Positions 4,872 to 36,673 of a stretch of 64,000 nt of DNA are shown in pieces (positions within the stretch are counted from its first letter, which is position 1; each line of letters starts with the position of its first letter). The DNA is taken from NCBI GenBank assembly GCA_028287505.1, contig JAQBPN010000096.1, positions 62,001-126,000 on the forward strand, in the 5' to 3' direction. This stretch comes from Fibrobacterota bacterium. Lineage in GTDB: Bacteria; Fibrobacterota; Fibrobacteria; UBA11236. The position numbers and the translations under genes are program-made. Under the pieces are notes generated by a model. The model ran no database searches, was not told the DNA's origin, and was given only the letters and a program-made list of their open reading frames with translations.

Positions 4872-5046
4872 GTTTCGTCGGGCGTCGGGCGACGGGCGTA
4901 AAACTTTTTCCGCACCCATAGGTCCTAAAAAGAAAAAGCCGAGGGAGGTCCTACGGCTTTTTTCTTTACGCCCGACGCCCGACGCCGAGGCGCCAAACAA
5001 ATGCAATCAAAAGCGGCGTCGGTTCGCGCCGGTCGCCCGACGAAAC
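4872..5046. repeat. 175-bp element with 13-bp terminal inverted repeats (MITE- or REP-like)
   Basis: The ends are perfect inverted copies of GTTTCGTCGGGCG (4872-4884 and 5034-5046). Inside is a second imperfect inverted pair: GTCGGGCGTCGGGCGAC near 4878-4893, and its near-complement at 4969-4987. These flank a rho-independent hairpin. The left end plus eight more bases recurs exactly at 36103-36123, so this is a dispersed family. No ORF or clear target duplication is visible. Confidence 0.6.
4933..4968. terminator. Bidirectional rho-independent terminator
   Basis: The stem AAAAAGCCG (4933-4941) pairs with CGGCTTTTTT (4954-4963) around a 12-base loop. The T-run on one strand and A-run on the other allow termination of both the plus-strand gene ending at 4818 and the convergent pckG gene ending at 5112. 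Confidence 0.75.
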
Positions 5047-5111
5047 GATGCCAGCGCGCAGTCTGTATCCGGCATTGCACTCCTCCCTCCCGAACAGATC
5101 TTCTTCAAGCC

Positions 5112-6893
5112 TCAGAGCCTTGAAATCAACAACTCGCGCTGGAATATCAACTCTTTAGGCAAGTGGTCGTAAAGGGAAATGAACAGTTCATCCTGGGATA
5201 TCACTTCGCGTTTCCAGGCTTCGATGTCGATGGCTTGGAGGTCCTCGAAGTCTTTCCGGGTTACGCCCGCCAGGCCGTTCAGGTCGAACTCCTCGGCCAG
5301 GGGCATCCATCCCAGGGGGGATTCCTCCGCCGCGCGCCGGCCCTTGCAACGCTCGACGATCCAGGCCAGCACGCGCATGTTTTCGCCGAATCCCGGCCAC
5401 ATGAAGCGGCCCGCTCCGTCGCGCCGGAACCAGTTCACGTGGAAGACCAAGGGCGGCCTTTTGATGAGCTTGCGCATCTTGATCCAATGGGCGAAGTAAT
5501 CCCCCATGTTGTACCCGCAGAAGGGAAGCATGGCCATGGGATCCCGCCGTACCAGGCCGACTTTGCCTTCGGCCGCCGCGGTGGTTTCAGAACCCATGGT
5601 GGCTCCCAGGAAAACCCCGTGGATCCAATTGAAAGCCTGGATGAGCAGGGGGACGTTGGTCGCGCGCCGCCCTCCGAAGATCAGGGCGCTCAGGGGAACG
5701 CCCTGCGGGTCCTCCCAGGCCGGATCGATAGAAGGACAATTGGCGGCCGGAGCCGTGAAGCGCGAGTTGGGGTGCGCCGCGGGTGTCTTGCTTTCCGGAG
5801 TCCAGGGATTGCCGCGCCAGTCGAAGACCGGTCCTTTGGGAACCGGACCCATGCCCTCCCACCAGACATCCCCGTCCGCGGTCAGGGCCACGTTGGTGAA
5901 AATGGTGTCGTGGGCCATGCTGTGCATGGCGTTGGGATTGGATTCCCAGGAGGTGCCGGGGGCCACCCCGAAAAAGCCCGCTTCCGGGTTGATGGCGCGC
6001 AGACGGCCGTCGCTTCCGGGTTTGATCCAGGCTATATCGTCGCCCACCGTGTAGGTCTTCCAACCTTGCATGGCGGGGGGCGGCACCAGCATGGCGAAAT
6101 TGGTTTTGCCGCATTGGCTGGGAAAGGCCGCCGCCACGTAAGTCTTATCCCCTTGCGGCGATTCCACTCCCAGGATGAGCATGTGTTCGGCGAGCCAACC
6201 TTCGTCCCGGCCCAGCACGGAAGCGATGCGCAGGGCGAAGCATTTCTTGCCCAAAAGGGCGTTGCCGCCATACCCGGATCCGAAGGACCAGATGGAACGT
6301 TCCTCGGGGAAATGGGCGATGTATTTCTCGGCGGGATTGCATGGCCAGGGTACGTCCTTGGCGCCCGGTTCCACGGGCATGCCTACCGAGTGCAGGCACT
6401 TGACGAAGTCCCCCCGGCCCAGGACCTGCAGGGCCTCGGCGCCCATGCGCGTCATGATGCGCATGCTCACCGCCACGTATGCGGAGTCCGTGATCTGGAC
6501 GCCTATGCGGGCGATGTCCGATCCCAGCGGGCCCATGCTGAAGGGAATGACATACATGGTGCGGCCGCGCATGCACCCTTGGAACAGGCCGGTCAGCTTG
6601 GATTTCATTTCCGCGGGGGCGCGCCAGTTGTTGGTGGGTCCGGCGTCTTCGCGCCGGATGCTGCTGATGAAGGTCCTCTCCTCGGATCGGGCGACGTCTT
6701 CCGGATGGGAGCGGGCGTAGAAGCTGCGCGGGCGTTTCACCGGATCCAGGCGGATGAAGGTTCCGCCTTTGACCAGGCCGTCGCACAGCCGGTCATACTC
6801 TTTCAGGGAGCCGTCGCACCACTCCACCGCGGCCGGGCGGCAGAGTTCAGAGACTTCCTTTACCCAGGCTTCCAATTTCAAGTTACCCGCCAT
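5112..6893 (-). CDS. pckG: Phosphoenolpyruvate carboxykinase (GTP)
   Basis: This cytosolic enzyme interconverts oxaloacetate + GTP and phosphoenolpyruvate + GDP + CO2, the first step of gluconeogenesis or an anaplerotic route. The 593-residue length and sequence match the GTP-dependent family, not the ATP one. The modified P-loop [13 protein letters not shown] (residues ~257-269) contains the hyper-reactive cysteine. The metal/nucleotide loop GDDIAW follows at ~284-289, with the guanine-pocket region FGWRG-like/[16 protein letters not shown] and the C-terminal lid region behind it. It stands alone on its strand with its own promoter (TATAAT at 6919-6914) and a good Shine-Dalgarno (GGAGG). No truncation or missing catalytic element was noticed. 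Confidence 0.97.
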
Positions 6894-8062: not shown

Positions 8063-9370
8063 CTAGAAAGACCGCTGGCCCAGGGTCACGTCCTTCTTCT
8101 CCAGGATGCCCTGCTCATTGATCTTGACGGTAAGGGGTAACGGGCGGGTGGCGTAATACCGGCGTGCCTCAGGTCCGGCCATCCCCACCATCCAGTCCAT
8201 GTGGTATTTGAGGACCGCCTGCTGGACCTGGGGCAAATCGGTGTCGGTGGTGATGCTGATGATTTGCCAGTTTTTGTTGTGGAACCCCTTGTAGAAGTCC
8301 CGGACGCCGGACAGGTTCTCCAGGCAGGGTTTGCACAGGGTCGACCAGAACTGGATCATCACCTTCTTGCCCCGGAAATCGGAAAGTTTGACCGTATCCC
8401 CGTCCATGTTGACGAAGCGGATGTCCGGGGCCTTGCGCCCTTCCACGGCCTTGAAAGCCGCCGCAGCCGGGTCATAGGCCCCCAGGCGCCGCAAGTCCAG
8501 CCAGGCCCCCTTTTCGTCCGCGGAAATGATTTCGTAGGAGATTGAGTCCAGGGAGAACCGGAAAGGGGCCCCCCGGGCCGGCGCGGCGATGCCGTCGGCC
8601 TCCAGGGACTTCTCCATCACCCCGTCCCCGTCCCAGTCCACCACCAGGCGGTCACCCCCGTCCAGGCGGATTTTTCCGTCCCCGTCGGCATCGCAAAGAC
8701 CGATATGTTTATTGACTCCTCCCTGGCTTAGGGAGCCGACGGTGAGGTCGAGCACGCGCACCCGGAACGGGCCGTCGTCGCAAATGGCCCAGGTCAAGGA
8801 TGATTTCATGCCTTCGCACTTTGCCTGCCACTCCTTGGCCTTGGCGCCCGCCCGGCACAGGGAAACCGGCGCCGAGCCGCCGCCCGCCCGCTCCAGGGTC
8901 ACGCAGGAATCCCCTTTGGGCCAGAATCTGGCGGGGCCGTCATTGCCGAGATCTTCGTCGTTGTTCAAATCCATGAACACGGAGTCCCCGGCGGGAACCC
9001 CGAACAGGGCGAGGGTCACGACCGGATCGCCCGCTTGGGCGCGGATGGCTTTCAAGGATAGGAAGCGCAGGGACTCCAGCGGTTTGTTCCTGGGCAGGAT
9101 GATTTTCTCGTCCGCCAGGACGCGGGGAATGGCCACCGCCTGGCAGGTCCCTTTGGCATCCGGACAATCCAGGAAGTCGGCTTTGGCCGGCTCGCGCGCA
9201 TCGAAGGTGCGGTGGTCCAACATCACGCGGATGGGCGAGGAATCGGATCCGGTGTTCCAGGCCCTGCCCTCGTCGGGGCAGAGGAGCCCCGCCAATAACA
9301 CAAGGCAAAAGCCGGCAACGGATCGATGACGGGACGTCTTCGTCGGGAAGGGAATGTATGTGGGGTGCAT
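8063..9370 (-). CDS. Secreted TlpA-like thioredoxin-fold protein
   Basis: This is a 435-residue exported protein. A signal peptide (AGFCLVLLAGLLCPDEGRA) is followed by ~280 residues containing Asp/Asn/Gly-rich calcium-site-like motifs (DLNNDEDLGND, DADGDGK, DWDGDGV), probably a beta domain. The C-terminal ~130 residues are a TlpA/ResA-type thioredoxin domain with APDIRFVNMDGDTVKLSDFRGK and the redox motif STLCKPC. Such proteins reduce or isomerise thiols outside the cytoplasm. The best promoter (TTGACG, 18 bases, TATCAT) would begin transcription about two bases before the ATG, so the message may be leaderless. No downstream gene is clearly co-transcribed. Confidence 0.82.
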   Translation of the reverse strand: MHPTYIPFPTKTSRHRSVAGFCLVLLAGLLCPDEGRAWNTGSDSSPIRVMLDHRTFDAREPAKADFLDCPDAKGTCQAVAIPRVLADEKIILPRNKPLESLRFLSLKAIRAQAGDPVVTLALFGVPAGDSVFMDLNNDEDLGNDGPARFWPKGDSCVTLERAGGGSAPVSLCRAGAKAKEWQAKCEGMKSSLTWAICDDGPFRVRVLDLTVGSLSQGGVNKHIGLCDADGDGKIRLDGGDRLVVDWDGDGVMEKSLEADGIAAPARGAPFRFSLDSISYEIISADEKGAWLDLRRLGAYDPAAAAFKAVEGRKAPDIRFVNMDGDTVKLSDFRGKKVMIQFWSTLCKPCLENLSGVRDFYKGFHNKNWQIISITTDTDLPQVQQAVLKYHMDWMVGMAGPEARRYYATRPLPLTVKINEQGILEKKDVTLGQRSF

Positions 9371-9378
9371 GTGGATTG

Positions 9379-9408
9379 ATGATAAGGTGAAGGGGGATTT
9401 CCCGTCAA
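9379..9408 (-). promoter_or_regulatory. Sigma-70 promoter giving a near-leaderless transcript
   Basis: On the minus strand TTGACG (9408-9403) and TATCAT (9384-9379) are separated by 18 bases, each matching five of six consensus positions. The expected start is near 9372 and the ATG is at 9370. There is no Shine-Dalgarno sequence between them. Confidence 0.5.
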
Positions 9409-9600
9409 GGGAACTTACGTTCCGGACGACCCCGGAGCCATTAATGATGGAAACCCGGGGCCGGTCAAAGAGTGGTCAAAGAACGCCCGCACGATTCCCC
9501 ACTTTGACGCATCATTTATCGAAGCGAGGGTAACCATCCATCCATCAAGGCTTTATCCCCTATTGGGTTTCTTCCCACCGGACATGGTCTTCGGCCGTAT

Positions 9601-10551
9601 CTAGACGGTAACCGCATTGGGGGCCATTCCCGTTTCCCGGAACTCCACCGCGATGCGGACAGCTTCCCGGGCCACCGCTTCGGCGGCTTGATCCGTGGAG
9701 GCTCCCAGGTGGGGCGTGCATACCGCCAGCGCGGCCAACTCCACGTCGGCGAAAGGGGCTTCCGGAACCTTGGGTTCCCCGGCGAATACATCCAGCCCCG
9801 CCCGCAATGCCCGGGATCGGATCGCGTCCAACAGTGCGGTCCGATCCACCACCTCCCCGCGGGAGGTATTCACGAACAGGGCTCCGGGTTTGAGGTTCGC
9901 GAAGAAGGACGCCCCGATGAGGTTGCGGGTCTCGCCGTTGGATGCCACGTGCAGGCTTATGGCGTCGCTTGCGCGGGCAAGCTCGTCCAGGTTCGCCGCG
10001 TAGGCGACGCCGGCGTCCCGGGCCGATTCCGGCGTGAGACTGCGCGACCATGCGATGACCTTCATCTCCAAGCCCTGGGCCTTGCGGGCCATGGCGCTAC
10101 CCACCGCACCGAATCCCACCAACCCCAGGCTGCGGCCCTTGAGGCCCATCCCCTGTCCCAGGGCGCCCTTGGCCCACTTTCCCTGCCGCAGCGCCCACGT
10201 GCCTTCGGCGATTCTCCGATCGGCGGCCAACAGAAGGCCCAAAGCCATTTCCGCCACCGCGTCCGCATTCCGGCCGGGCGTGTTGCTCACCTGGATTCCC
10301 CGCGCGGCCGCGGCGGCCACGTCGATGGTATCCGTTCCGGCTCCGGCGCGGAGGATCAGTTTCAAGGCCGGTAGTTGCGGGAGGATTTCCTTGGGCACCA
10401 AGGTGGATCGGACGATCAGGATTTCCGCCGTTGCCGCCTGGACGGGGAGATTGCCGGGGGCCAGCCCTTGGCATTGGACCACGGTGAATCCGGCCGCTCC
10501 CAGGCCCCGCAAGGCCAACCCATCCAACTTGTCCGCCGAAAGTACCATCAT
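9601..10551 (-). CDS. D-isomer 2-hydroxyacid dehydrogenase (phosphoglycerate dehydrogenase-like)
   Basis: This is a 316-residue NAD-dependent dehydrogenase. The Rossmann signature GLVGFGAVGSAMARKA, the catalytic Arg segment NTSRGEVVD and the His motif CTPHLGAST identify the D-2-hydroxyacid dehydrogenase family. The sequence most resembles short phosphoglycerate dehydrogenases without the regulatory ACT domain, so serine synthesis is possible, but glyoxylate or hydroxypyruvate reduction cannot be excluded. The start is the first of two adjacent ATGs at 10551, with a purine-rich AAGGGGGTGGG just upstream. No serB or serC is adjacent, which weakens the serA assignment. Confidence 0.85.
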   Translation of the reverse strand: MMVLSADKLDGLALRGLGAAGFTVVQCQGLAPGNLPVQAATAEILIVRSTLVPKEILPQLPALKLILRAGAGTDTIDVAAAAARGIQVSNTPGRNADAVAEMALGLLLAADRRIAEGTWALRQGKWAKGALGQGMGLKGRSLGLVGFGAVGSAMARKAQGLEMKVIAWSRSLTPESARDAGVAYAANLDELARASDAISLHVASNGETRNLIGASFFANLKPGALFVNTSRGEVVDRTALLDAIRSRALRAGLDVFAGEPKVPEAPFADVELAALAVCTPHLGASTDQAAEAVAREAVRIAVEFRETGMAPNAVTV

Positions 10552-25513: not shown

Positions 25514-27481
25514 TCAGGAGGGTGGCTTACTCTCCGCCAGGTATGCCCGCCACCCGCCATAGTCGGTGATCTCCACGGCGCCGTCCACTCCCGAGGGCTC
25601 GCACAGGAATCCTTTCACTTTCTCGCCGTTTTCCAATTCCACCGTGCCGATGCACAGGGGTTCCTTGACGTTTTCCAGAAAGGCGCCCAAGGCCGCCGGG
25701 GTCAACTCCCACACTTCCAGGACCACCGCCGCACCGCCCTCGCTCTGGCGGACCATGCCGGGAAATTTCCGGCCGGGCCGCTCCAAAGCATAGAGGCGAT
25801 AGCGCGGAACGGTTTTGAATGTACCCGCCAACCTTGCGCCCAGATTCAGCAATTGCGGGTTCAAGGGCTGACCGGAAAGATGCAGGCCCGCAACGGCCAA
25901 GCGGATCAAGGACGCCGGTCCACGGCTATCCGGAGAAACCTCGCCCGACGGCGAAGCGCCTGAGAGAGCGGTTCCGGACGGAGAAGCTCCGGACGGAGAT
26001 CCTTCGGACGATAAGACTCCGGCTTGGGAGGATACGGGAAAGGACTTGGATATCGGATTGGACGTGGCGCCCATTGTGAGTCCCGTGGCCGAATGGAAAA
26101 CCGCTCCCAAAGAGGCGATCACTCCTTCCTGGAATGCGGGCGCAATCAAAGTGACGCCGAAGGGAAGTCCGTTCGCTTTGCGTCCCGAAGGCACCGCCAC
26201 GGCGCACAGGTCCAAAAGGTTGACGAAGTTGGTGTAATACCCCAATCGCGTGTTCAGATTGATGGGATCGGCTTCCACCTCTTCGAACCTGTATTGGGTG
26301 GGAGCGGTTGGAGTCAGGAGGAAATCCATCCCTTTGAACAGACCCTCCGTCTGGGTCCGCAATTCCCGCAGGCGATAATAGGCGCGGAAGCCGTCCACGG
26401 CCGTCAGGGTTTTCCCCCGGGCCATCACCTCCCGTATCACGGGCAATACCTCCCCGGAATTCTCATCCACGAATCCTCCGAAGGCGGCCTGGCGTTCCGC
26501 CAGCCAGGCTCCCTGGTACAGAAGCCGCGCCGCCTCCGCGAAGGGTTCGAAAGGTATTTCCAGGCTCACGCCGCCCATGGCGGTCATCCTGTCCACCGCC
26601 TGCCGGAACAGGGCCGCGGATTCATCGTCACCGAAGAATTCCAGGTGCCTCGCATCGGGAATGCCGAAATGGAAACGGGTTTTCCGGCCGGGCGCGAATG
26701 CGGAAGCGGTCGCATTCCGGTGCCAGGGCACGGGGCGGGAAAAAGCGTCCTGGGAATCCGTGCCGCGGCAAAGTTCCAGGACCTTGAACGCGTCCCCGGT
26801 AGTCAGCGCGAATACGGAAACGCAATCCAGGGAGCGGCAGGCGGGGACCACCCCGTGGGCGCTGATCACGCCGCGCGTGGGTTTCAGGCCCACTACGTTG
26901 TTGAAACCCGCCGGCACCCTTCCGGAACCCGCGGTATCCGTGCCCAAAGCGAAGGCAACCAGCCCGGCCGCCACCGCCACCGCGGATCCGGAGCTGGACC
27001 CGCCGGCGATATAGGCGGCATTGAAGGGATTGCGCACGGTACCGTACGGGGAACGGGTTCCCACCAGGCCGGTCGCGAACTGATCCATGTTGGTCTTGCC
27101 AATCAGGATGGCGCCCGCCGCCTCCAGCCTGGCGACCGCCGTGGCGGTGGCTTTCGCCACGTAGGCGAAGGCCGGGCAGGCCGCGGTGGTTTCCATCCCC
27201 TCCACGTCGATATTGTCCTTGACCGCGAAAGGAATTCCGAAAAGCGGATAGCGCCCCGGACCGTCCTGGTTATCCCGGTATGAACTCTCCAAAGCCACGG
27301 CGCGCGCCAGGACTCGCTCCCAGGGGACCCGGGAAATCCACACCGCGGAATCGGGATAATCCCCCAGTCTTTTCTTAAGCTCTTCGAGAAAGCGGAACAG
27401 GTTGGCGGTATCGGATGCGAAAAGGGATTGCAGGGTCCGGAAATCCAGGCTTGCGCCTTTGCTCACTACGCTCAATTTCAA
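25514..27481 (-). CDS. atzF: Allophanate hydrolase
   Basis: This is a 655-residue cytosolic amidase-signature enzyme splitting allophanate to ammonia and CO2. The triad is visible: Lys88 in FAVKDNIDVEG, the cis-Ser region GGSSSGSAVAVAAG (~161-173) and the nucleophile in TDTAGSGR (Ser186). The amidase part ends near residue 465. A ~60-residue Ser/Pro/Gly-rich linker with repeated EGSPSGASPSG-like units comes next, then the C-terminal allophanate hydrolase domain (LAVAGLHLSGQPLNPQLLNLGARL) that completes the two-step hydrolysis. The start is uncertain: TTG at 27481 or a nearby TTG/GTG, with GGGAG just upstream. It diverges from the transporter/carboxylase arm. Confidence 0.93.
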   Translation of the reverse strand: MKLSVVSKGASLDFRTLQSLFASDTANLFRFLEELKKRLGDYPDSAVWISRVPWERVLARAVALESSYRDNQDGPGRYPLFGIPFAVKDNIDVEGMETTAACPAFAYVAKATATAVARLEAAGAILIGKTNMDQFATGLVGTRSPYGTVRNPFNAAYIAGGSSSGSAVAVAAGLVAFALGTDTAGSGRVPAGFNNVVGLKPTRGVISAHGVVPACRSLDCVSVFALTTGDAFKVLELCRGTDSQDAFSRPVPWHRNATASAFAPGRKTRFHFGIPDARHLEFFGDDESAALFRQAVDRMTAMGGVSLEIPFEPFAEAARLLYQGAWLAERQAAFGGFVDENSGEVLPVIREVMARGKTLTAVDGFRAYYRLRELRTQTEGLFKGMDFLLTPTAPTQYRFEEVEADPINLNTRLGYYTNFVNLLDLCAVAVPSGRKANGLPFGVTLIAPAFQEGVIASLGAVFHSATGLTMGATSNPISKSFPVSSQAGVLSSEGSPSGASPSGTALSGASPSGEVSPDSRGPASLIRLAVAGLHLSGQPLNPQLLNLGARLAGTFKTVPRYRLYALERPGRKFPGMVRQSEGGAAVVLEVWELTPAALGAFLENVKEPLCIGTVELENGEKVKGFLCEPSGVDGAVEITDYGGWRAYLAESKPPS

Positions 27482-27520
27482 ACTCCCATGGCTGCCTTAT
27501 CGGCAGGTTTAATTAAACAA

Positions 27521-27536
27521 AGCAAGTTTGCGACCA
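27521..27536 (-). promoter_or_regulatory. Candidate sigma-54 promoter of the allophanate hydrolase arm
   Basis: The minus strand reads TGGTCGCAAACTTGCT, giving the invariant GG and GC elements separated by exactly ten bases, with TGG and TTGCT matching the -24/-12 consensus; the bases after TGG do not match CAC. The expected start is near 27510, about 29 bases before the TTG. No comparable sigma-70 pair was found here. Confidence 0.45.
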
Positions 27537-27544
27537 TGTTCCAA

Positions 27545-27690
27545 TCTTTGTCACTCTTCCCAAAGGTAGCGGACAATCAAGGACAATTGGCCAAAGGAAT
27601 GAATCAGAGCCGGCTCCGCCAATCCCATTTTATGACATTTATCGCCAATGACCATGCCATCTCTTCCCAATTATGACACTTCTCCCGGCG
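27545..27690. promoter_or_regulatory. Repeated TGACA elements between the divergent arms (candidate activator sites)
   Basis: ATGACA occurs at 27632-27637 and 27673-27678, exactly 41 bases apart, inside the related sequences CCCATTTTATGACATTT and CCCAATTATGACACTT. An inverted TGACA lies at 27549-27553. The spacing puts them on similar faces of the helix. They fit enhancer sites for a sigma-54 activator, although they do not resemble the NtrC consensus. Confidence 0.35.
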
Positions 27691-27726
27691 GCCAATCCCC
27701 AATTGCCCATTCCATTCGATTCCGAT

Positions 27727-27741
27727 TGGTACGGGGATTGC
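27727..27741 (+). promoter_or_regulatory. Sigma-54 promoter of the guanidine/urea carboxylase arm
   Basis: The sequence TGGTACGGGGATTGC matches the sigma-54 consensus TGGCACG-N4-TTGC at all positions but one, with GG and GC exactly ten bases apart. Transcription should begin near 27753. The Shine-Dalgarno GGGAGA (27763-27768) and ATG (27776) follow. Confidence 0.62.
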
Positions 27742-27775
27742 GTTTGACGGGTGAAACTCTATGGGAGACCTCCTC

Positions 27776-28810
27776 ATGTCCGATTCCTCAATCGACCGTA
27801 TCAAGGATCAATTCAAATCCGTCCTGAAATTCCTCGGCATCCTGATCCTTATCACGTTCGGCCTGCAAATGAGCGCCCACGGGGCCACGCCCCTGAAGGT
27901 GGCCTATAGCGACTGGCCGGGATGGGTCGCCTGGGACATCGCCGTGCAAAAGGGCTGGTTCAAGGAAGCCGGCGTGGACGTGGAGTTCGTCTGGTTCGAA
28001 TACGTGCCTTCCATGGACGCGTACTCCGCGGGCAAGGTGGACGGCGTGTGCATGACCAACGGCGACGCCCTGGTCACTGGCGCCAACGGCAAAGCCTCCA
28101 AGGGCATTCTGCTCAACGACTTCAGCAACGGCAACGACATGGTGGTGGCCAAGGCCGGCATCAAGTCCATCAAGGATCTGAAAGGCAAGAAGATCGGCGT
28201 GGAAGTCGGATTCGTCGATCACCTACTCCTCCTGAAAGGTCTGGAAGCGGCCGGCCTGCAGGAAAAGGACGTCACCTTGGTCAACATGCCCACCAATCAG
28301 ACGGCCCAGGGACTCGCCTCCGGCTCCGTCTCGGCCATCGCCGCCTGGCAGCCCAATTCCGGACAGGCCCTCAAGGACGTCCCCGGATCCACGGCCATCT
28401 ACACCAGCGCCGACGCGCCCGGCCTCATCTATGACCTTCTCTACGTGAGTCCGGAAAGCCTGGCCAAGCATAAGGAAGAATGGAAGAAGGTGGTCAAGGT
28501 CTGGTTCCGGGTGGTGGACTTCATCAAGGACGACAAGAACAAGGCCGAATACCTGAAGATCATGAGCGCTCGCGTGGGCCTGAAGCCGGAAGCCTACGAA
28601 CCCCTGATGAAGGGAACCCATTTCCTGGACGCGGCGGAAAACAAGAAGCATTTCGCGGCCGGCAAGGACCTTTCCTCCGTCCTCGGCTCCTCCAAGATCG
28701 TCGATGACTTCAACATGAAGAACGCCGTGTACAAGAAGGCCCAGGACGTAGCCTCTTACCTGGACGGCAGCCTGCTCACCGATTCGAAACCCGTCGCGGC
28801 CTCCAAGTAG
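27776..28810 (+). CDS. ABC transporter substrate-binding protein (guanidine/urea carboxylase-associated)
   Basis: This is a 344-residue exported binding protein of the NMT1/SsuA-like fold. A signal segment ([18 protein letters not shown]) is followed by [35 protein letters not shown], a textbook opening of this family. The protein matches the group that accompanies urea-carboxylase-type enzymes and is usually labelled a putative urea binding protein. Given the neighbours, guanidine is a more likely ligand. I chose ATG 27776 because GGGAGA lies seven bases upstream; the ATG at 27761 has none. It is the first gene of the arm behind the sigma-54 promoter. Confidence 0.9.
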
Positions 28811-28844
28811 AATCCAGCGAGCCGGGTCCGGAGGCCAGAAGACA

Positions 28845-29915
28845 TTGATCCAAAGGCGCGTTACGGACTCCCTGCCGACCGACATCGACCAAACCTCCGC
28901 CCCGGCGCTTCCCGCCCGGGCGGTACTCTCCCCGGTAACGGCGCCGCCCAGGTTGCGCCCGCCTTCGCCCGCCTTCCAGGTCCGCAAACCCATATCGTCC
29001 CGAGCCAATCTCTGGCTTACCCAGGGCGCCTTCCTGCTGCCTTTGCTGCTCTGGTGCGCGGTCAGCTATCTCCCCTTCCTCTGGCATCCCAAGGTGAACA
29101 TCCTCGATCCGGGCTCGGTCGACTATTTCCAGAAGGGCATGCAGGTGGATCGCGCCGAATTCCGGGACGAGAACCGCAAGCAGATCGCCGCGGGCGGAGC
29201 GCCGGCCACGGGAGTCCGGGAGAACCCGGTCTATCTGCCCGCCCCGCACCTGGTGGCCAAAGCCCTGTACACGGCGTTCAAAACCCCGCCCCTCAGGGAC
29301 GGCGAACCCTGGCTGCACGAAAGCCTGGGCCACAGCATCCGCATCATCACTCTGGGCTTCCTGCTCTCCGCCCTGTTCGGAGTCCCATTGGGAATCCTGT
29401 GCGGCACCTTCGCCCTGGTCTCGCGCCTGTCGGAACCTTTCGTGGATTTCATCCGTTACATGCCGGCCCCGGTTTTCGGCGCCCTGTCCGTGGCCATCCT
29501 CGGCATCGACGACGCTCCCAAGGTGGCCATCATCTTCGTGGGGACCTTTTTCCAGATGGTCCTGGTGCTTGCCAACACCACCCGCTCGCTCCCCGCCGCC
29601 CTGTTGGAGGCCGCCCAGACCCTGGGCGCCAAGCGCCGGCAGTTGTTGCTCAACGTGGTGGTGCCCGGCGTGCTCCCGTTGCTGTACCGGGACATGCGCA
29701 TCCTGCTGGGTTGGGCCTGGACCTACCTTATCGTGGCCGAGCTCATCGGCGCCAGTTCCGGCATCAGCTTTTTCATCTATCAGCAGGCCAAGTACCGGAA
29801 TTACGACAATGTCTACGCCGCCATCATCATCATCGGTCTCATCGGCCTGGGCACGGACATCGCGCTCAAATGGCTGGGGCGGTTTTTCTTCCCCTGGGAA
29901 AAGGCGGACGCATAA
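28845..29915 (+). CDS. ABC transporter permease
   Basis: This is a 356-residue inner-membrane permease of the SsuC/TauC type. The N-terminal ~55 residues are soluble, followed by a first helix (GAFLLPLLLWCAVSYLPFL). A polar loop of ~100 residues is unusually long for the family. Then come the five core helices with the EAAxxxGA-like coupling loop AALLEAAQTLGAKRRQLLLNVVVPGVLP, which contacts the ATPase. The TTG start is not well supported; a later start is possible within the first 50 residues. A one-base spacing separates its stop from the ATPase start. Confidence 0.9.
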   Translation: MIQRRVTDSLPTDIDQTSAPALPARAVLSPVTAPPRLRPPSPAFQVRKPISSRANLWLTQGAFLLPLLLWCAVSYLPFLWHPKVNILDPGSVDYFQKGMQVDRAEFRDENRKQIAAGGAPATGVRENPVYLPAPHLVAKALYTAFKTPPLRDGEPWLHESLGHSIRIITLGFLLSALFGVPLGILCGTFALVSRLSEPFVDFIRYMPAPVFGALSVAILGIDDAPKVAIIFVGTFFQMVLVLANTTRSLPAALLEAAQTLGAKRRQLLLNVVVPGVLPLLYRDMRILLGWAWTYLIVAELIGASSGISFFIYQQAKYRNYDNVYAAIIIIGLIGLGTDIALKWLGRFFFPWEKADA

Positions 29916-29916
29916 C

Positions 29917-30831
29917 ATGCAAGAGACGCTCGCACTTCCCGATTACCTCGACCTCTCCCCCGATCTGGTCAAAAGGTTCCGGACCATCGAGTCGCGGGAA
30001 ACCATCCTCCGGATCGAACACCTGCGCAAGGATTTCGTCGGCCGCAACGGCGACGGAGCGGGCATGCCTCCGGTATTGGGCGATATCTCCTTCGAGGTCA
30101 AACGCCGGGAATTCATCTGCGTGATAGGCGCCTCCGGTTGCGGCAAGTCCACCATGCTGCGGATTCTCGGCGGCCTGGAACCGCGGACCGGCGGCGATGT
30201 CCGCATGAACGGCCATAGCGTATCGGGACCCGGCGCGGACCGGGGCATGGTGTTCCAGGAATACACCCTGTTCCCATGGCTCACCGTCAAGAAGAACGTC
30301 ATGTTCGGGCCCAGGATGTCCGGGCACGGCAAGGACGCCTCGGAAGCGGAAGCCCTGCAATGGCTGGACATGGTGGGCCTCTCGGAACGGGCGGACGCCT
30401 ATCCCCACCAGCTTTCCGGCGGCATGAAGCAGCGCGTGGCCATCGCCAGGGCCTTGGCCAACTATCCCGCCATCCTGCTGATGGACGAGCCCTTCGGCGC
30501 CCTGGATGCGCAGACCCGCTGCCAGATGCAGCGCCACCTGCTGCAGATCTGGAAAAACGTGGACGTTACCGTGCTTTTCGTGACCCATGATCTGGACGAA
30601 GCCATCCTGCTTGCGGACCGGATAGTGGTGCTGGGCGCGCGCCCGGGGCGCATCCTGGAAATCATCAAGGTCCCGGTGGACCGGCCGCGCCATCAAGGCC
30701 AATTGTTGTCGCCGCATTTCCTGGCGATCAAAAAAAGGCTGGAACAGTTGATCCATCCGGATGATTCGGAAGCGCTCAAGGATTTGCCGTTGATGAGGAT
30801 GACCCAGGTAGGCGACGAAGCCGAGGATTGA
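29917..30831 (+). CDS. ABC transporter ATP-binding protein
   Basis: This is a 304-residue ATPase of the nitrate/sulfonate/taurine class. Walker A is GASGCGKST (71-79), the Q-loop lies in VFQEYTLFPW, the signature is LSGGMKQR (166-173) and Walker B is ILLMDEPFGALD (186-197), with the switch histidine in FVTHDLDEA. The ATG at 29917 directly follows the permease stop. With the two preceding genes it makes a complete importer energised in the cytosol. Confidence 0.95.
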   Translation: MQETLALPDYLDLSPDLVKRFRTIESRETILRIEHLRKDFVGRNGDGAGMPPVLGDISFEVKRREFICVIGASGCGKSTMLRILGGLEPRTGGDVRMNGHSVSGPGADRGMVFQEYTLFPWLTVKKNVMFGPRMSGHGKDASEAEALQWLDMVGLSERADAYPHQLSGGMKQRVAIARALANYPAILLMDEPFGALDAQTRCQMQRHLLQIWKNVDVTVLFVTHDLDEAILLADRIVVLGARPGRILEIIKVPVDRPRHQGQLLSPHFLAIKKRLEQLIHPDDSEALKDLPLMRMTQVGDEAED

Positions 30832-30919
30832 CGGCGCCGGCCGTGGGAACGGCCGCGGATTCGATCAGGTTGATCGGGATTGCTGTGGAACTTTGTTTTT
30901 TGGGAGGCGATGAAAAGCG

Positions 30920-31636
30920 ATGGACGATGATTTGCTCATCCGGTCGGAGACCCTGCGGGGCGGAGCCATGTGGTCCTGGACCCTCAAGCGCGGGACATCC
31001 CTGCGCCTGGTCGATCCGGAAGGCGGCGCCAACGTTTCCGCGCTTTTCCTGAACGCGGACGCGCCTCTGGAACGCTACAACATGCCGGATACCCTCAAGG
31101 CGCAGTTCATCGCCTTTCTCACCAAGGGCAATGTGCTCTATTCGGACATGGGGCGGATCCTCTGCTCCATCGTGGAGGATACCTGCGGCTGGCATGACAC
31201 GCTCTGCGGCGCCACCGACGCCGGCCTTACCAAAGCCAAATACGGGGATTCCGGCTACCAGCGGCATCGCAATGATTGGTTCCGCAACGGGCGCGACAAT
31301 TTCCTGGTGGAGCTGGGAAAGTACGGGCTGGGAAAGAAGGATCTCCCCGTGCCCGTCAATTTTTTCAGCAAGGTCACGGTCGACGGGGAGGGTAACCTGC
31401 GGTGGCAATCCGGGAACTCCGGACCGGGCTCGCTGGTGGAACTGAGGGCGGAAATGGACACCCTGGTGGTCCTCTCCAACACGCCCCATCCCATGGATCC
31501 CGTTTCCACCTATTCCCCCAGGCCCGTGCGCCTGGAAATCCGCCGCTGCCCGCCGCCGGGCCCCGGCGACCTGTGCCGCAACTCCCGCCCGGAAAACGGC
31601 CGGGGATTCCTGAACACCGAAGCCCTGTACAGGTAG
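30920..31636 (+). CDS. DUF1989 urea carboxylase-associated protein, probable carboxyguanidine deiminase subunit
   Basis: This is a 238-residue DUF1989 protein of the second urea carboxylase-associated type. The conserved blocks are [52 protein letters not shown] and NFFSKVTV. The cysteine/histidine motif [11 protein letters not shown] probably binds metal. In guanidine-degrading bacteria two such proteins form the deiminase that converts carboxyguanidine to allophanate, so this gene supplies the step between the carboxylase and allophanate hydrolase. The second subunit follows after 16 bases. Confidence 0.88.
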
Positions 31637-31652
31637 GAGCGAAAGGAAGCGC

Positions 31653-32318
31653 ATGCCCATCCTGGTCTACACCGAAAGCGGATTGAGTCCCGAGGACGCG
31701 ATCCATGACGAAATCCTTCCCGCCGGCAAAGGCTGGATCCATTCCCTCAAAGCGGGACAACATTTCCGCATCCTGGACCTGGAAGGCAACCAGGCGGTGG
31801 ATACGCTTTTCTACAGCCAGTCCGACCCCGCCGATCGCTACGATGCCGTGGCCACCATCCGGGCCCAGGGAAACATTTTCCTCACCACCGGCACGCGCCT
31901 CATGTCCAGCGAAGGAAACGTATTGCTCACCATCACCGCCGATACCTGCGGCCGCCACGACACGTTGGGCGGGGCCTGCTCGGCGGAGAGCAATACCGTG
32001 CGCTATGCGCTGGAAAAAAAGCATATGCACAATTGCCGGGACAGCTTCCTGATTGAATTGGCGGGCTCGCGGGACGGGATGAACAAACGGGATCTGACCA
32101 GCAACATCAATTTCTTCATGAACGTTCCCGTCACTCCGGAAGGCGGACTCACCTTCGCGGACGGCGTATCGGGAGCGGGCAAATACGTCGAGATGCGCGC
32201 CGAAACGGACGTCATCGTACTGATCTCCAATTGCCCCCAGCTCAACAATCCCTGCAATGCCTACAACCCCACCCCCGTGCGCCTGCTGGTCTGGGACCCG
32301 CCCGCCCGGATCGCCTGA
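31653..32318 (+). CDS. DUF1989 urea carboxylase-associated protein, probable carboxyguanidine deiminase partner subunit
   Basis: This is a 221-residue paralogue of the preceding gene, of the first urea carboxylase-associated type. The matching blocks are [51 protein letters not shown] and [16 protein letters not shown]. It retains the same DTCGxHDTLGG metal/active-site motif. The two proteins are related but differ enough to form a heteromeric enzyme. It ends 18 bases before the carboxylase start. Confidence 0.88.
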
Positions 32319-32336
32319 ACCCCGGGAATTCCAGCC

Positions 32337-35300
32337 ATGTTTTCCAAGGTCCTGATTGCCAACCGCGGCGAAATCGCCTGCCGCATCGCCCGCACCCTCC
32401 GCACCATGGGCATCCGCTCCGTGGCCGTCTATTCCGAAGCCGACGCCGGCTCCCTGCACGTATCCGCTTGCGATGAGGCCCATTGCATCGGCCCCGCCCA
32501 GCCCGCGGCCAGCTATCTCGACTCCGCCAAGATCCTGGCGGCCGCCAAAGCCTCCGGGGCCCAGGCGATCCATCCAGGCTACGGCTTCCTGAGCGAGAAC
32601 GCCGCCTTCGCCGAGGCCTGCGCCTCGGCCGGCATCGTCTTCATCGGTCCCGCTCCGGACCATATGCGCGATTTCGGCCTCAAGCATACGGCGCGCGCCC
32701 TTGCGGAAAAGAGCGGCGTGCCCCTCCTGCCCGGCACCGGCCTGCTGGCCGACGCCGCCGATGCGGCCGCCCAGGCGGAACGCATCGGTTTCCCCGTGAT
32801 GCTCAAGAGCACGGCGGGCGGAGGCGGCATCGGCATGCAGGTGGTCAAGGACGGCCGGGAACTGTCGGCCGCGTGGGAAACCGTGAGCCGGTTGAGCCAG
32901 AGCAATTTCAAGCATGGCGGCATCTACCTGGAGAAGTACGTCACCCGGGCACGCCACGTGGAAGTGCAAATCTTCGGCGACGGCAAAGGCCGGGTGCTGG
33001 CCCTGGGGGAGCGCGATTGTTCCGCGCAACGCCGCAACCAGAAGGTGCTGGAGGAGACTCCCGCCCCCGGCCTGAGCGCGGCCTTGCGTAAAGCCCTCCT
33101 GGAGGCGGCCGTACGTCTGGGGGAAACCGCCGCTTATGAAAGCGCCGGAACGGTCGAGTTCGTGCTGGACGCCGAGGCCGCGGCGGCCCAGGCCGAGGCC
33201 GAAACCGCCGGAGCTCCGGGATCCGCCCGGCCATCCGGATATTACTTCCTGGAGGTCAACACCCGTTTGCAGGTGGAGCATGGCGTCACCGAAGAGGTCA
33301 CCGGCGTCGATCTGGTGGAATGGATGATCAGGCAGGCCGCCGGCGAGCTGGGCGATCTGGAACGGTTGCGTCCCACGGCCGGCGGGCACTCCATCCAGGC
33401 GCGCGTGTATGCCGAAAACCCCCGGCTGGATTTCCGCCCCAGCGCCGGCGTCGTCACGGAAGCCGCCTTTCCGTCCGGGACCAGGGTGGATACCTGGATC
33501 GAGCGGGGCAGCGAGGTCTCCCCCTTCTACGATCCTCTGGTGGCCAAGGTCATCGTCAAAGGCAAGGACCGGGCCGAGGCCCTGGCCGCGCTGGAAAAAG
33601 CCCTGGCGGCCACGCGCCTGGATGGGATTGAAACCAACCTGGAGTTCCTGCGGGCGGTGGCGGCTTCGCCTGTATTCTCCCAGGGCCGCATGACCACGCG
33701 GGAACTGGCCGGATTCTCCTACCTGTCCAATACCATCGACGTGCTCACGCCCGGGGCCCAGACCACCATCCAGGACTACCCCGGCCGCATCGGCTATTGG
33801 GACGTGGGCGTGCCGCCTTCCGGCCCTTTCGATCCCCTGTCCTTCCGCCTGGGGAACCGTCTGCTGGAGAATCCCGAAAGCGCCGCCGGCCTGGAAATCA
33901 CCGTGGCCGGCCCCACCCTGCGCTTCAACCGGGCCTGCGGCGCCATCGTCACCGGCGCGGCCCTGAAGGCGGAATTGATTACCCCCGAGGGTACCAGGGA
34001 AGTTACCCAATGGGAACCCTTCCGGATCCCCGCCGGCGGCGTTCTCAAGCTCGGCGCGGTCACGGGGGCGGGTATGCGCGCTTACCTGTGCGTCCAGGAG
34101 GGCCTGGACTCTCCCTTGTATATGGGCAGCCGTTCCACCTTCACGCTGGGAAATTTCGGCGGACATGCCGGACGCACCTTGCGCGCCGGAGACGTGCTCC
34201 ACCTGCATCCCGGCGCGGCGGAGAAGCCCGCGCAAGGGCGACTGGCCCCGGCCCTGCGGCCGGTGTTCACCCGTGAGTGGGAGATCGGAGTCCTTTACGG
34301 CCCGCACGGATCCCCGGACTATTTCACCGATCGCGACATCGAGACCTTTTTCTCCACCGATTGGGAGGTCCACTACAATTCCAACCGCACCGGCGTGCGC
34401 CTTATCGGCCCCAAGCCGGAATGGGCGCGGCCGGACGGCGGCGAAGCGGGCCTGCATCCCTCCAACATCCATGACAACGCCTACGCCATCGGCACGGTCG
34501 ACTTCACCGGGGACATGCCCATCCTGTTGGGCCCGGACGGACCCAGCCTGGGAGGGTTCGTGTGCCCGGCCACCATCGTGCAGGCCGAGCTGTGGAAAAT
34601 GGGACAGTTCAAACCCGGCGACAAAATCCGCTTCCGCAAATTGTCCCTGGATCAGGCGCGGGACCTGGAACAAAACCAGGAACGGCTTATCAGCCGCCTG
34701 ACGGAAGGAACGGAAGCCGCGACGAGAATCCCGCCGCAGGCGCCCCCCATGCCCGCGGGCCGGCCCCATGCGCAGTCCGATGCGTTCGGCCCTGAGGCGA
34801 ACATCCTCCATCGCATTCCCCCCGCGGCCGGCAGCCTGGAAGTCCGCTATCGTCGCGCCGGAGATCGCAACCTCCTGGTGGAATACGGCCCCCCCGTGCT
34901 CGATCTCAATCTGCGCTTCCGTGCGCATGCGTTGAGGACGCATTTGGAATCCCTGCGCCTGGAAGGCGTCCTCGATCTCACTCCCGGCATCCGATCCCTG
35001 CAGATCCATTTCGACGGCCGGGTGCTGCCCATGGAAAAACTCCTGCAAACCCTCATCGACGCGGAAGGCCGGCTCCCGGCCATCGACGCCATGGAGATCC
35101 CCACCCGCATCGTGCACATGCCCTTGTCCTGGGACGACGAGGCCACCCACGCGGTCATCCGCAAGTACATGCAATCCGTGCGCGCGGACGCGCCCTGGTG
35201 TCCCAGCAACATCGAGTTCATCCGGCGCATCAACGGCCTGGATTCCGTCGAAGACGTCTTCAATACCGTGTTCAAGGCGGACTACCTGGTGATGGGCCTG

Positions 35301-36056
35301 GGGGATGTCTACCTGGGCGCCCCGGTCGCCACGCCCCTGGACCCGCGCCATCGCCTGGTCACCACCAAATACAATCCCGCCCGCACTTGGACGGTGGAAA
35401 ACGTGGTGGGCATCGGCGGAGCCTATATGTGCATCTACGGCATGGAAGGCCCGGGCGGTTACCAGCTTTTCGGCCGCACCTCGCAAGTGTGGAACACCTA
35501 CCGGCAGACCGGGGACTTCCGCGAGGGGAAGCCCTGGCTGCTGCGCTTCTTCGATCAAATCCGTTTCTTCCCGGTGAGCGGCAAGGAACTGCTCGAATTC
35601 CGCTCCGATTTCATCCGCGGCCGCGCGACCCTGAAAACCGAGCCCCACGTCTTCCGGCTCAAGGACTACAACCGCTTTCTCCACGACAACAGTACCGATA
35701 TCGCCGCCTTCCGGGAAAAGCAGCGCGCCGCCTTCAGCGCGGAACGCGAACGCTGGAAGGCCGCCGGCGCTCTCGAGTCCGATCGGAAGCCGGAACCGGA
35801 GGGTACCTCCGAGGTTACCCTGGCGGCCGATCCCGGAACCGGCATCCCCGTGGACGCGCACATTTCCGGAAACGTATGGAAGGTGCTGGTGGAACCCGGC
35901 CAGGAAGTGGAAGCGGAGGCGCCTCTGCTGATCCTGGAAAGCATGAAGATGGAATTCACGGTTACCGCCCCCGCCGCCGGCAAGGTGAAGTCGGTGGTGG
36001 CCAAGGAAGGCTTGTTGGTGACCAGTGGCCAGACGCTGTTGTACATGGAAGAGTGA
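32337..36056 (+). CDS. uca: Urea carboxylase-family biotin enzyme, probably guanidine carboxylase
   Basis: This is a 1239-residue single-chain biotin carboxylase. Residues 1-450 are an ATP-grasp biotin carboxylase ([48 protein letters not shown]). The central part is the KipA-like then KipI-like carboxyltransferase pair ([32 protein letters not shown]; later [17 protein letters not shown]). The C-terminal biotinyl domain has [10 protein letters not shown] with Lys1204 as biotin site. The family carboxylates urea to allophanate or guanidine to carboxyguanidine. The two DUF1989 genes favour guanidine, but sequence alone does not settle it. Oddities are a ~20-residue Ala/Glu-rich insertion near residues 277-300 inside the carboxylase domain and the Gly of EHGVTE where Pro is usual. 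Confidence 0.93.
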   Translation: [1239 protein letters not shown]

Positions 36057-36215: not shown

Positions 36216-36227
36216 TAAACTGTATGG
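36211..36227 (+). promoter_or_regulatory. Candidate MarR operator (autoregulation)
   Basis: ATACTTAAACTGTATGG covers the -10 box and start codon of marR. It recurs inverted, with two mismatches, at 36684-36700 before doxX. It has ATAC/GTAT dyad ends around seven bases. Binding here would block transcription initiation of the regulator itself. Confidence 0.55.
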
Positions 36228-36673
36228 ATGAGAACGGTTGCCCGGAAGGCGAAAAAACCAAGAAAAGCCTCGATTGCTGGCTTCAGATGATCAGGACCTA
36301 TGATCATCTGCAAAACCAGGTGGCTTCCCTGCTGCAACGGCATAACCTGACGGTGCCGCAATTCGAGGTTCTTTCCACTCTCGCCATCGCCGATTGCACC
36401 ACCCAACAGGAACTGGCGGAACGGCTGCAGGTGACCAAGGGAAACCTGGTCGGCCTCATCGACCGCCTGACCGAACGCGGCTGGGTGGAGCGCATGCAGG
36501 TGCAGGGCGATCGCAGGGTGAACCGGGTACGTATAACCGAGGGAGGTAAAGAGATATTGAAAACGGCCTTTCCAGAACAGGTCAGCGCTGTGCAAACCAT
36601 GATGTCCGGGCTGGAAGAAACGGAGCTGGATTCCTTGAGGGGTTTGCTGCAAAAACTGGCCAAAAATGATTGA
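36224..36673 (+). CDS. MarR family transcriptional regulator
   Basis: This is a 149-residue winged-helix repressor. The recognition region (TTQQELAERLQVTKGNLVGLIDRLTERGWVER) and wing (GDRRVNRVRITEGGKEIL) are clear, framed by N- and C-terminal dimerisation helices. It contains two cysteines near the N-terminus (Cys6, Cys19) and one in the first domain (IADCTTQ) that could sense electrophiles, which would suit its neighbours. It is followed on the same strand by DoxX and azoreductase genes. Matching operator-like sequences lie before marR and before doxX, supporting local autorepression. Confidence 0.9.
   Translation: MDENGCPEGEKTKKSLDCWLQMIRTYDHLQNQVASLLQRHNLTVPQFEVLSTLAIADCTTQQELAERLQVTKGNLVGLIDRLTERGWVERMQVQGDRRVNRVRITEGGKEILKTAFPEQVSAVQTMMSGLEETELDSLRGLLQKLAKND

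Follow-up and report, generated by a model that had tools for sequence, protein, structure and literature searches.

A stretch of 64,000 nucleotides from a Fibrobacterota bacterium (assembly GCA_028287505.1, contig JAQBPN010000096.1, positions 62,001 to 126,000 of the forward strand), referred to here as the window, carries a locus whose enzymes bear the names of urea metabolism and probably degrade guanidine. The window is placed on contig C101 of a host genome of 6.07 Mb (98.7% complete). On the forward strand the locus begins with an ABC importer that is composed of a substrate-binding protein (SBP) of the NMT1 type (27776..28810, PF09084; an alternative upstream ATG lies at 27761), a permease (28845..29915, PF00528, 91 bits) and an ATPase of 304 amino acids, read from the ATG at 29917 (29917..30831, PF00005, 111 bits). 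The importer genes are followed by two DUF1989 proteins, CgdA (UAAP1; 30920..31636, TIGR03425, 346 bits) and CgdB (UAAP2; 31653..32318, TIGR03424, 334 bits), both above the family cut-off, and by a carboxylase of 1239 amino acids that is annotated as urea carboxylase (32337..36056, TIGR02712, 1795 bits against a cut-off of 1304). The allophanate hydrolase AtzF is encoded divergently on the reverse strand (25514..27481, TIGR02713, 737 bits against a cut-off of 511) and starts with a TTG at 27481 or 27475. Both domains of its family are present, i.e., the amidase signature domain (PF01425, 305 bits), with the motifs GKTNMDQFATG, GGSSSGSA and DTAGSGR, and the AH_C domain (PF21986, 155 bits), and between them lies a low-complexity linker rich in Ser, Gly and Pro (residues ~480-525; window ~25900-26050, reverse strand). 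The gene list and coordinates of the initial annotation, which had recognized the importer, the two DUF1989 proteins, the biotin-dependent carboxylase and the allophanate hydrolase on the opposite arm, are thus confirmed by very strong family matches.

The carboxylase has the full BC-CT-BCCP architecture with all Pfam domains and the biotin motif SMKM, the biotin lysine being Lys1204. By the published criteria, guanidine carboxylase needs Asp at the positions corresponding to residues 1330 and 1584 of the Kluyveromyces lactis enzyme, whereas urea carboxylases have Asn at 1330 (PMC11410670; see also PMC12186494). The comparison of the active site with characterized carboxylases, which had been proposed with the initial annotation, was made by alignment to the K. 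lactis urea amidolyase structures (PDB 5i8i and 3va7). It places Asp722 of the window protein (codon 34500-34502) at K. lactis N1330 and Asp990 (codon 35304-35306) at D1584, so that the discriminating position is in the guanidine state, the Asn of urea carboxylases is absent and the second Asp is present as well. Among 101 aligned carboxylases the column of residue 722 holds Asp in 95, Cys in three and Asn in two, and one sequence is truncated. One of the two Asn sequences belongs to another Fibrobacterota locus (L122), in which the carboxylase is accompanied by AtzF and no CgdAB was seen on the 7.4 kb contig; a genuine urea route would be expected to have this arrangement. The Cys sequences come from Verrucomicrobia (L022, L026, and L028), where the operon order is carboxylase-AtzF-CgdA-CgdB, and they possibly represent a third specificity class.

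The statement in the initial annotation that no urease lies in the window is true but incomplete for the organism, since urease is encoded on another contig of the same genome (C112) and the urea importer gene urtA, with its own sigma-54 promoter, on contig C35. Urea is therefore served elsewhere in the genome and guanidine is the likely substrate here. Taken with the signature Asp pair and the complete CgdA/CgdB set, this supports the initial proposal of guanidine rather than urea, which is well supported by the sequence and not proved by it. The suspicion of mislabeling was borne out too, the library names being "urea carboxylase" and "urea amidolyase associated protein." That the family as a whole is misannotated in this way has been recognized before (PMC12186494; PMC11410670), and the mislabel at this particular locus is accordingly not new.

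The two DUF1989 proteins are one subunit of each type, encoded together as expected for the deiminase pair. CgdB keeps three cysteines, C109, C128, and C194, which are matched in the alignment by the zinc cysteines of the DUF1989 domain in trimethylamine N-oxide demethylase (Tdm, PDB 9q59); by this analogy they are likely zinc ligands, whereas CgdA has T/G/T in the same columns and lacks the set. The fold is shared with Tdm and with the structures 3ORU, 3SIY, and 3DI4; unlike Tdm, CgdA and CgdB are stand-alone subunits of a heteromeric deiminase without a GcvT domain.

A sigma-54 (-24/-12) promoter, TGGTACG-GGGA-TTGCG, lies at 27727..27742 on the forward strand, starting 49 nt and ending 33 nt before the SBP ATG at 27776, which is a fitting distance, and rpoN is present in the genome. 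A site with a score of at least 9 was found at -44 to -59 from the SBP ATG in 16 of 17 Fibrobacterota loci and ahead of 14 of 201 control open reading frames, where the loci are related, so that the counts do not represent independent events, and the controls include some spurious frames. The conserved site spans two families, f1 and f4. Genome-wide, the strict motif occurs 17 times and the reversed pattern five times, and the genes behind the strict sites, which include flgB, a flagellar lytic transglycosylase, a chemotaxis receptor, a pilin-like protein, urtA, an nrtA-like gene and nir, form a classic sigma-54 set. Ahead of AtzF the best minus-strand site scored only 8, and no sigma-54 promoter is claimed there.

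Upstream of the promoter there are two TGACA half-sites (27633..27637 and 27674..27678, both forward), 41 bp or about four helical turns apart, which make up a candidate upstream activating sequence of a pattern shared by nitrogen-gene promoters. All four nitrogen promoters (guanidine SBP, urtA, nrtA, and nir) have TGACA or TGTCA at a distance of 35-130 bp on the upstream side of the -24 element, and the 13 other strict sites all lack it; when the guanidine locus is left out, the comparison is 3/3 to 0/13, with a chance probability of 1/560. Half-sites were present at similar positions in relatives (both in L119, one each in L117 and L118). When the composite pattern was searched in six genomes of the genus, all of its matches lay at the guanidine SBP gene, nir, nrtA or urtA, and a search with the reversed pattern gave none; the matches come from three of the six genomes, and two of the three without any (L119 and L123) have a guanidine promoter that departs from the strict motif. 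A NifA-type site (TGT-N10-ACA) was not found by eye. Directly upstream of urtA lies a gene for a GAF-AAA+-Fis activator (L170:3138-4817; contig C35 ~71137-72817), and its product is a candidate nitrogen activator, one among about 20 enhancer-binding proteins of the genome.

Guanidine riboswitches control most of the guanidine carboxylase operons described so far. The scan of the window detected no guanidine riboswitch of class I, II or III, and a sub-threshold Rfam search of the region upstream of SBP gave none even at E 10. Class I is missing from the whole genome, no guanidine riboswitch was detected in 15 related Fibrobacterota stretches, and among 168 Fibrobacterota genomes classes I and III are not found at all and class II in only two, both of another family. 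In other phyla identical scans do detect riboswitches at guanidine loci (L008, L009, L017, L031, L042, L060, and others). With the Shine-Dalgarno sequence GGGAG of SBP at 27763..27767 (forward), the predicted leader amounts to about 20-25 nt, which is too short for a riboswitch. On this evidence from sequence there is no guanidine riboswitch control at the locus, a feature that the initial annotation had missed together with the sigma-54 promoter.

The nearest relatives of the carboxylase come from Fibrobacteres/Fibrobacteria metagenome assemblies of the same genus (L005, 74% identity; L072, 81%). Gene order is kept in the same-genus genomes, including the divergent AtzF and a TauE-type gene beyond it; the carboxylase is 74-82% identical where its gene sits on one contig (in one genome it is split over two) and SBP is 83-90% identical. 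In the f4 family, which is probably Fibrobacteraceae, all 12 guanidine operons examined (L125-L136) have a third DUF1989 gene, whose product retains every zinc-type cysteine and shares about 50% identity with CgdB. At L130 the third DUF1989 gene and an alpha/beta hydrolase gene (8271-8912 and 8905-9699) precede the carboxylase and a ROK-type regulator is divergent; where L130 has the hydrolase, the other f4-family loci show a similarly sized gap, and the extra genes are a possible extension of the pathway. The permease gene of L130, a single-contig genome, is seemingly split by a frameshift (4961-6033), through either sequencing error or inactivation.

Taken together, the locus looks like the known pathway with its layer of control by nitrogen starvation but lacking the one exerted by riboswitches, and we consider it likely that it is a guanidine carboxylase route for nitrogen scavenging, transcribed from a sigma-54 promoter, controlled by nitrogen limitation and free of a riboswitch. 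The ABC importer would take up guanidine, which the carboxylase, given its signature residues, would convert with ATP and bicarbonate to carboxyguanidine. CgdA/CgdB, by their family membership, would turn carboxyguanidine into allophanate and ammonia, and AtzF would release ammonia and CO2 from allophanate. Transcription of the importer-carboxylase operon would start at the sigma-54 promoter before SBP, probably under nitrogen limitation, through an enhancer-binding activator recognizing the TGACA/TGTCA sites common to the urea-import, nitrate-import and nitrite-reductase promoters, and a guanidine riboswitch would play no part in it.

Several observations weigh against this proposal and have to be set beside three other explanations. 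It may be argued that urea is degraded, just as annotated, by urea carboxylase and allophanate hydrolase, with the DUF1989 proteins as accessories. The library names and the TIGR02712 equivalog score are in its favor, a urea route would likewise end in AtzF, and the carboxylase of the Hyphomicrobium locus L060 (10001-13597) has Asn at 722 despite Gd-I and Gd-II riboswitches and CgdAB in its operon, which is at least one apparent exception to the one-residue rule and shows that it does not hold absolutely. Yet the window enzyme has Asp at the discriminating position, both deiminase subunits are encoded next to it, no CgdAB was seen on the contig of L122, the relative of the Asn type, and a urease is encoded in the genome, as is UrtA with a sigma-54 promoter of its own, which together make the urea route very improbable. 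The SBP is weakly assigned, as its best family, TIGR03427 (putative urea ABC transporter SBP), reaches 166 bits against a cut-off of 334, and this leaves room for the import of a substituted guanidine, e.g., methylguanidine, or of several guanidino compounds, guanidine being then an intermediate or one substrate among them. Elsewhere MgdH/MgdL do extend operons to methylguanidine (PMC12508155); inside the window operon, however, neither a dioxygenase nor a lyase gene was recognized, and the extra genes occur in the f4-family loci and not in the window, so that we regard such a substrate as rather unlikely.

Further points against the proposal concern the control of the locus. The half-site has only five base pairs, was first noticed at the guanidine locus itself and is mostly missing from f4-family loci; none of the about 20 NtrC-like enhancer-binding proteins of the genome reaches the NtrC cut-off; the sister-genus locus L120 has no recognizable sigma-54 site, and the kinship of the loci reduces the weight of the counts given above. 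One may ask if guanidine is the substrate and the locus answers instead to a local guanidine sensor, the sigma-54 motif being minor or due to chance. A candidate local regulator, a MarR-family protein (36224..36673, forward, PF01047), is encoded directly 3' of the carboxylase in the window and beside it in two same-genus genomes (L118, 79% identical; L119, 70%), and the divergent ROK regulator has a similar place at L130. On the other hand, the sigma-54 site is conserved in sequence and distance over two families and is common to other nitrogen genes, whereas MarR was not found next to the L120 locus, and local control of this kind appears unlikely. Guanidine scavenging under sigma-54 nitrogen control is thus the reading that we prefer.

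Sigma-54 sites are also found at guanidine loci of other phyla. Outside Fibrobacterota a site with a score of at least 10 lies within 250 bp of 24 of 56 guanidine-locus SBP genes and of 51 of 1087 control open reading frames. Eight of the ten Gd-I loci examined (L008, L009, L015, L017, L031, L077, L079, and L084) have a sigma-54-like site of that score starting 54-68 nt ahead of the aptamer, while L060 has a site at -25 and L025 none; such sites ahead of Gd-I riboswitches suggest dual control by nitrogen and guanidine. COG3665 we take to be the DUF1989 group. In a 2025 sigma-54 survey COG3665 is listed among proteobacterial sigma-54 targets, and 59% of its members carry the annotation "urea carboxylase" (PMC12316311), and in an ntrC mutant of Burkholderia cenocepacia H111 a "urea carboxylase" gene was down 64-fold (log2 -6.0), the same ntrC-dependent set holding an associated transporter and an aminomethyltransferase (PMC5491218). 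These data imply that sigma-54 control of such genes is partly known, under the wrong name; a 2025 review of guanidine mentions none of sigma-54, RpoN, and NtrC, and we found no report of sigma-54 control without a riboswitch in Fibrobacterota. In a FastTree phylogeny the carboxylases of genus g1 fall into a single clade (support 1.0), which groups with sequences of alphaproteobacteria (support 0.94), and those of the f4 family into another clade elsewhere, which, with weak deep support, suggests separate acquisitions. It is a tentative generalization, by no means far-fetched, that guanidine carboxylase operons of different phyla have sigma-54 nitrogen control as their common layer, and that the riboswitch, which in many proteobacteria stands directly behind the promoter, is an optional second one; Fibrobacterota would rely on nitrogen status alone, through an activator that binds TGACA and also serves the urea, nitrate and nitrite genes.

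Guanidine metabolism came to light through its riboswitches, and operons without them are thus easily missed and mislabeled as urea genes. The window locus draws attention to a phylum where the pathway is found repeatedly with no class I riboswitch and is apparently tied to nitrogen limitation, and nitrogen-regulon transcriptomes that report "urea carboxylase" may really show guanidine scavenging. It also offers clean comparisons, of Asp and Asn carboxylases within one phylum and of the Cys-type group of Verrucomicrobia.

Compared with the guanidine carboxylase operons (gca, cgdA/B, atzF, and an ABC importer) of Pseudomonas syringae, Raoultella, Klebsiella, and Vreelandella boliviensis, the window locus is alike in enzymes, signature Asp residues and importer type; it differs in having no class I or II riboswitch, a divergent instead of co-transcribed AtzF and a sigma-54 promoter with a very short leader. 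With yeast and bacterial urea amidolyase it shares a homologous carboxylase, which matches the K. lactis enzyme over its full length, and the AtzF chemistry, whereas it has Asp and not Asn at 1330, contains CgdA/CgdB and keeps the carboxylase unfused to AtzF. The NtrC/sigma-54-dependent cluster of B. cenocepacia H111 (I35_7283-7286) has a similar annotated gene set, i.e., carboxylase, associated transporter and aminomethyltransferase, that is labeled urea there (PMC5491218). In the related guanidine locus of Paraburkholderia (L031) a Gd-I riboswitch stands behind the sigma-54-like site, while in the window there is none.

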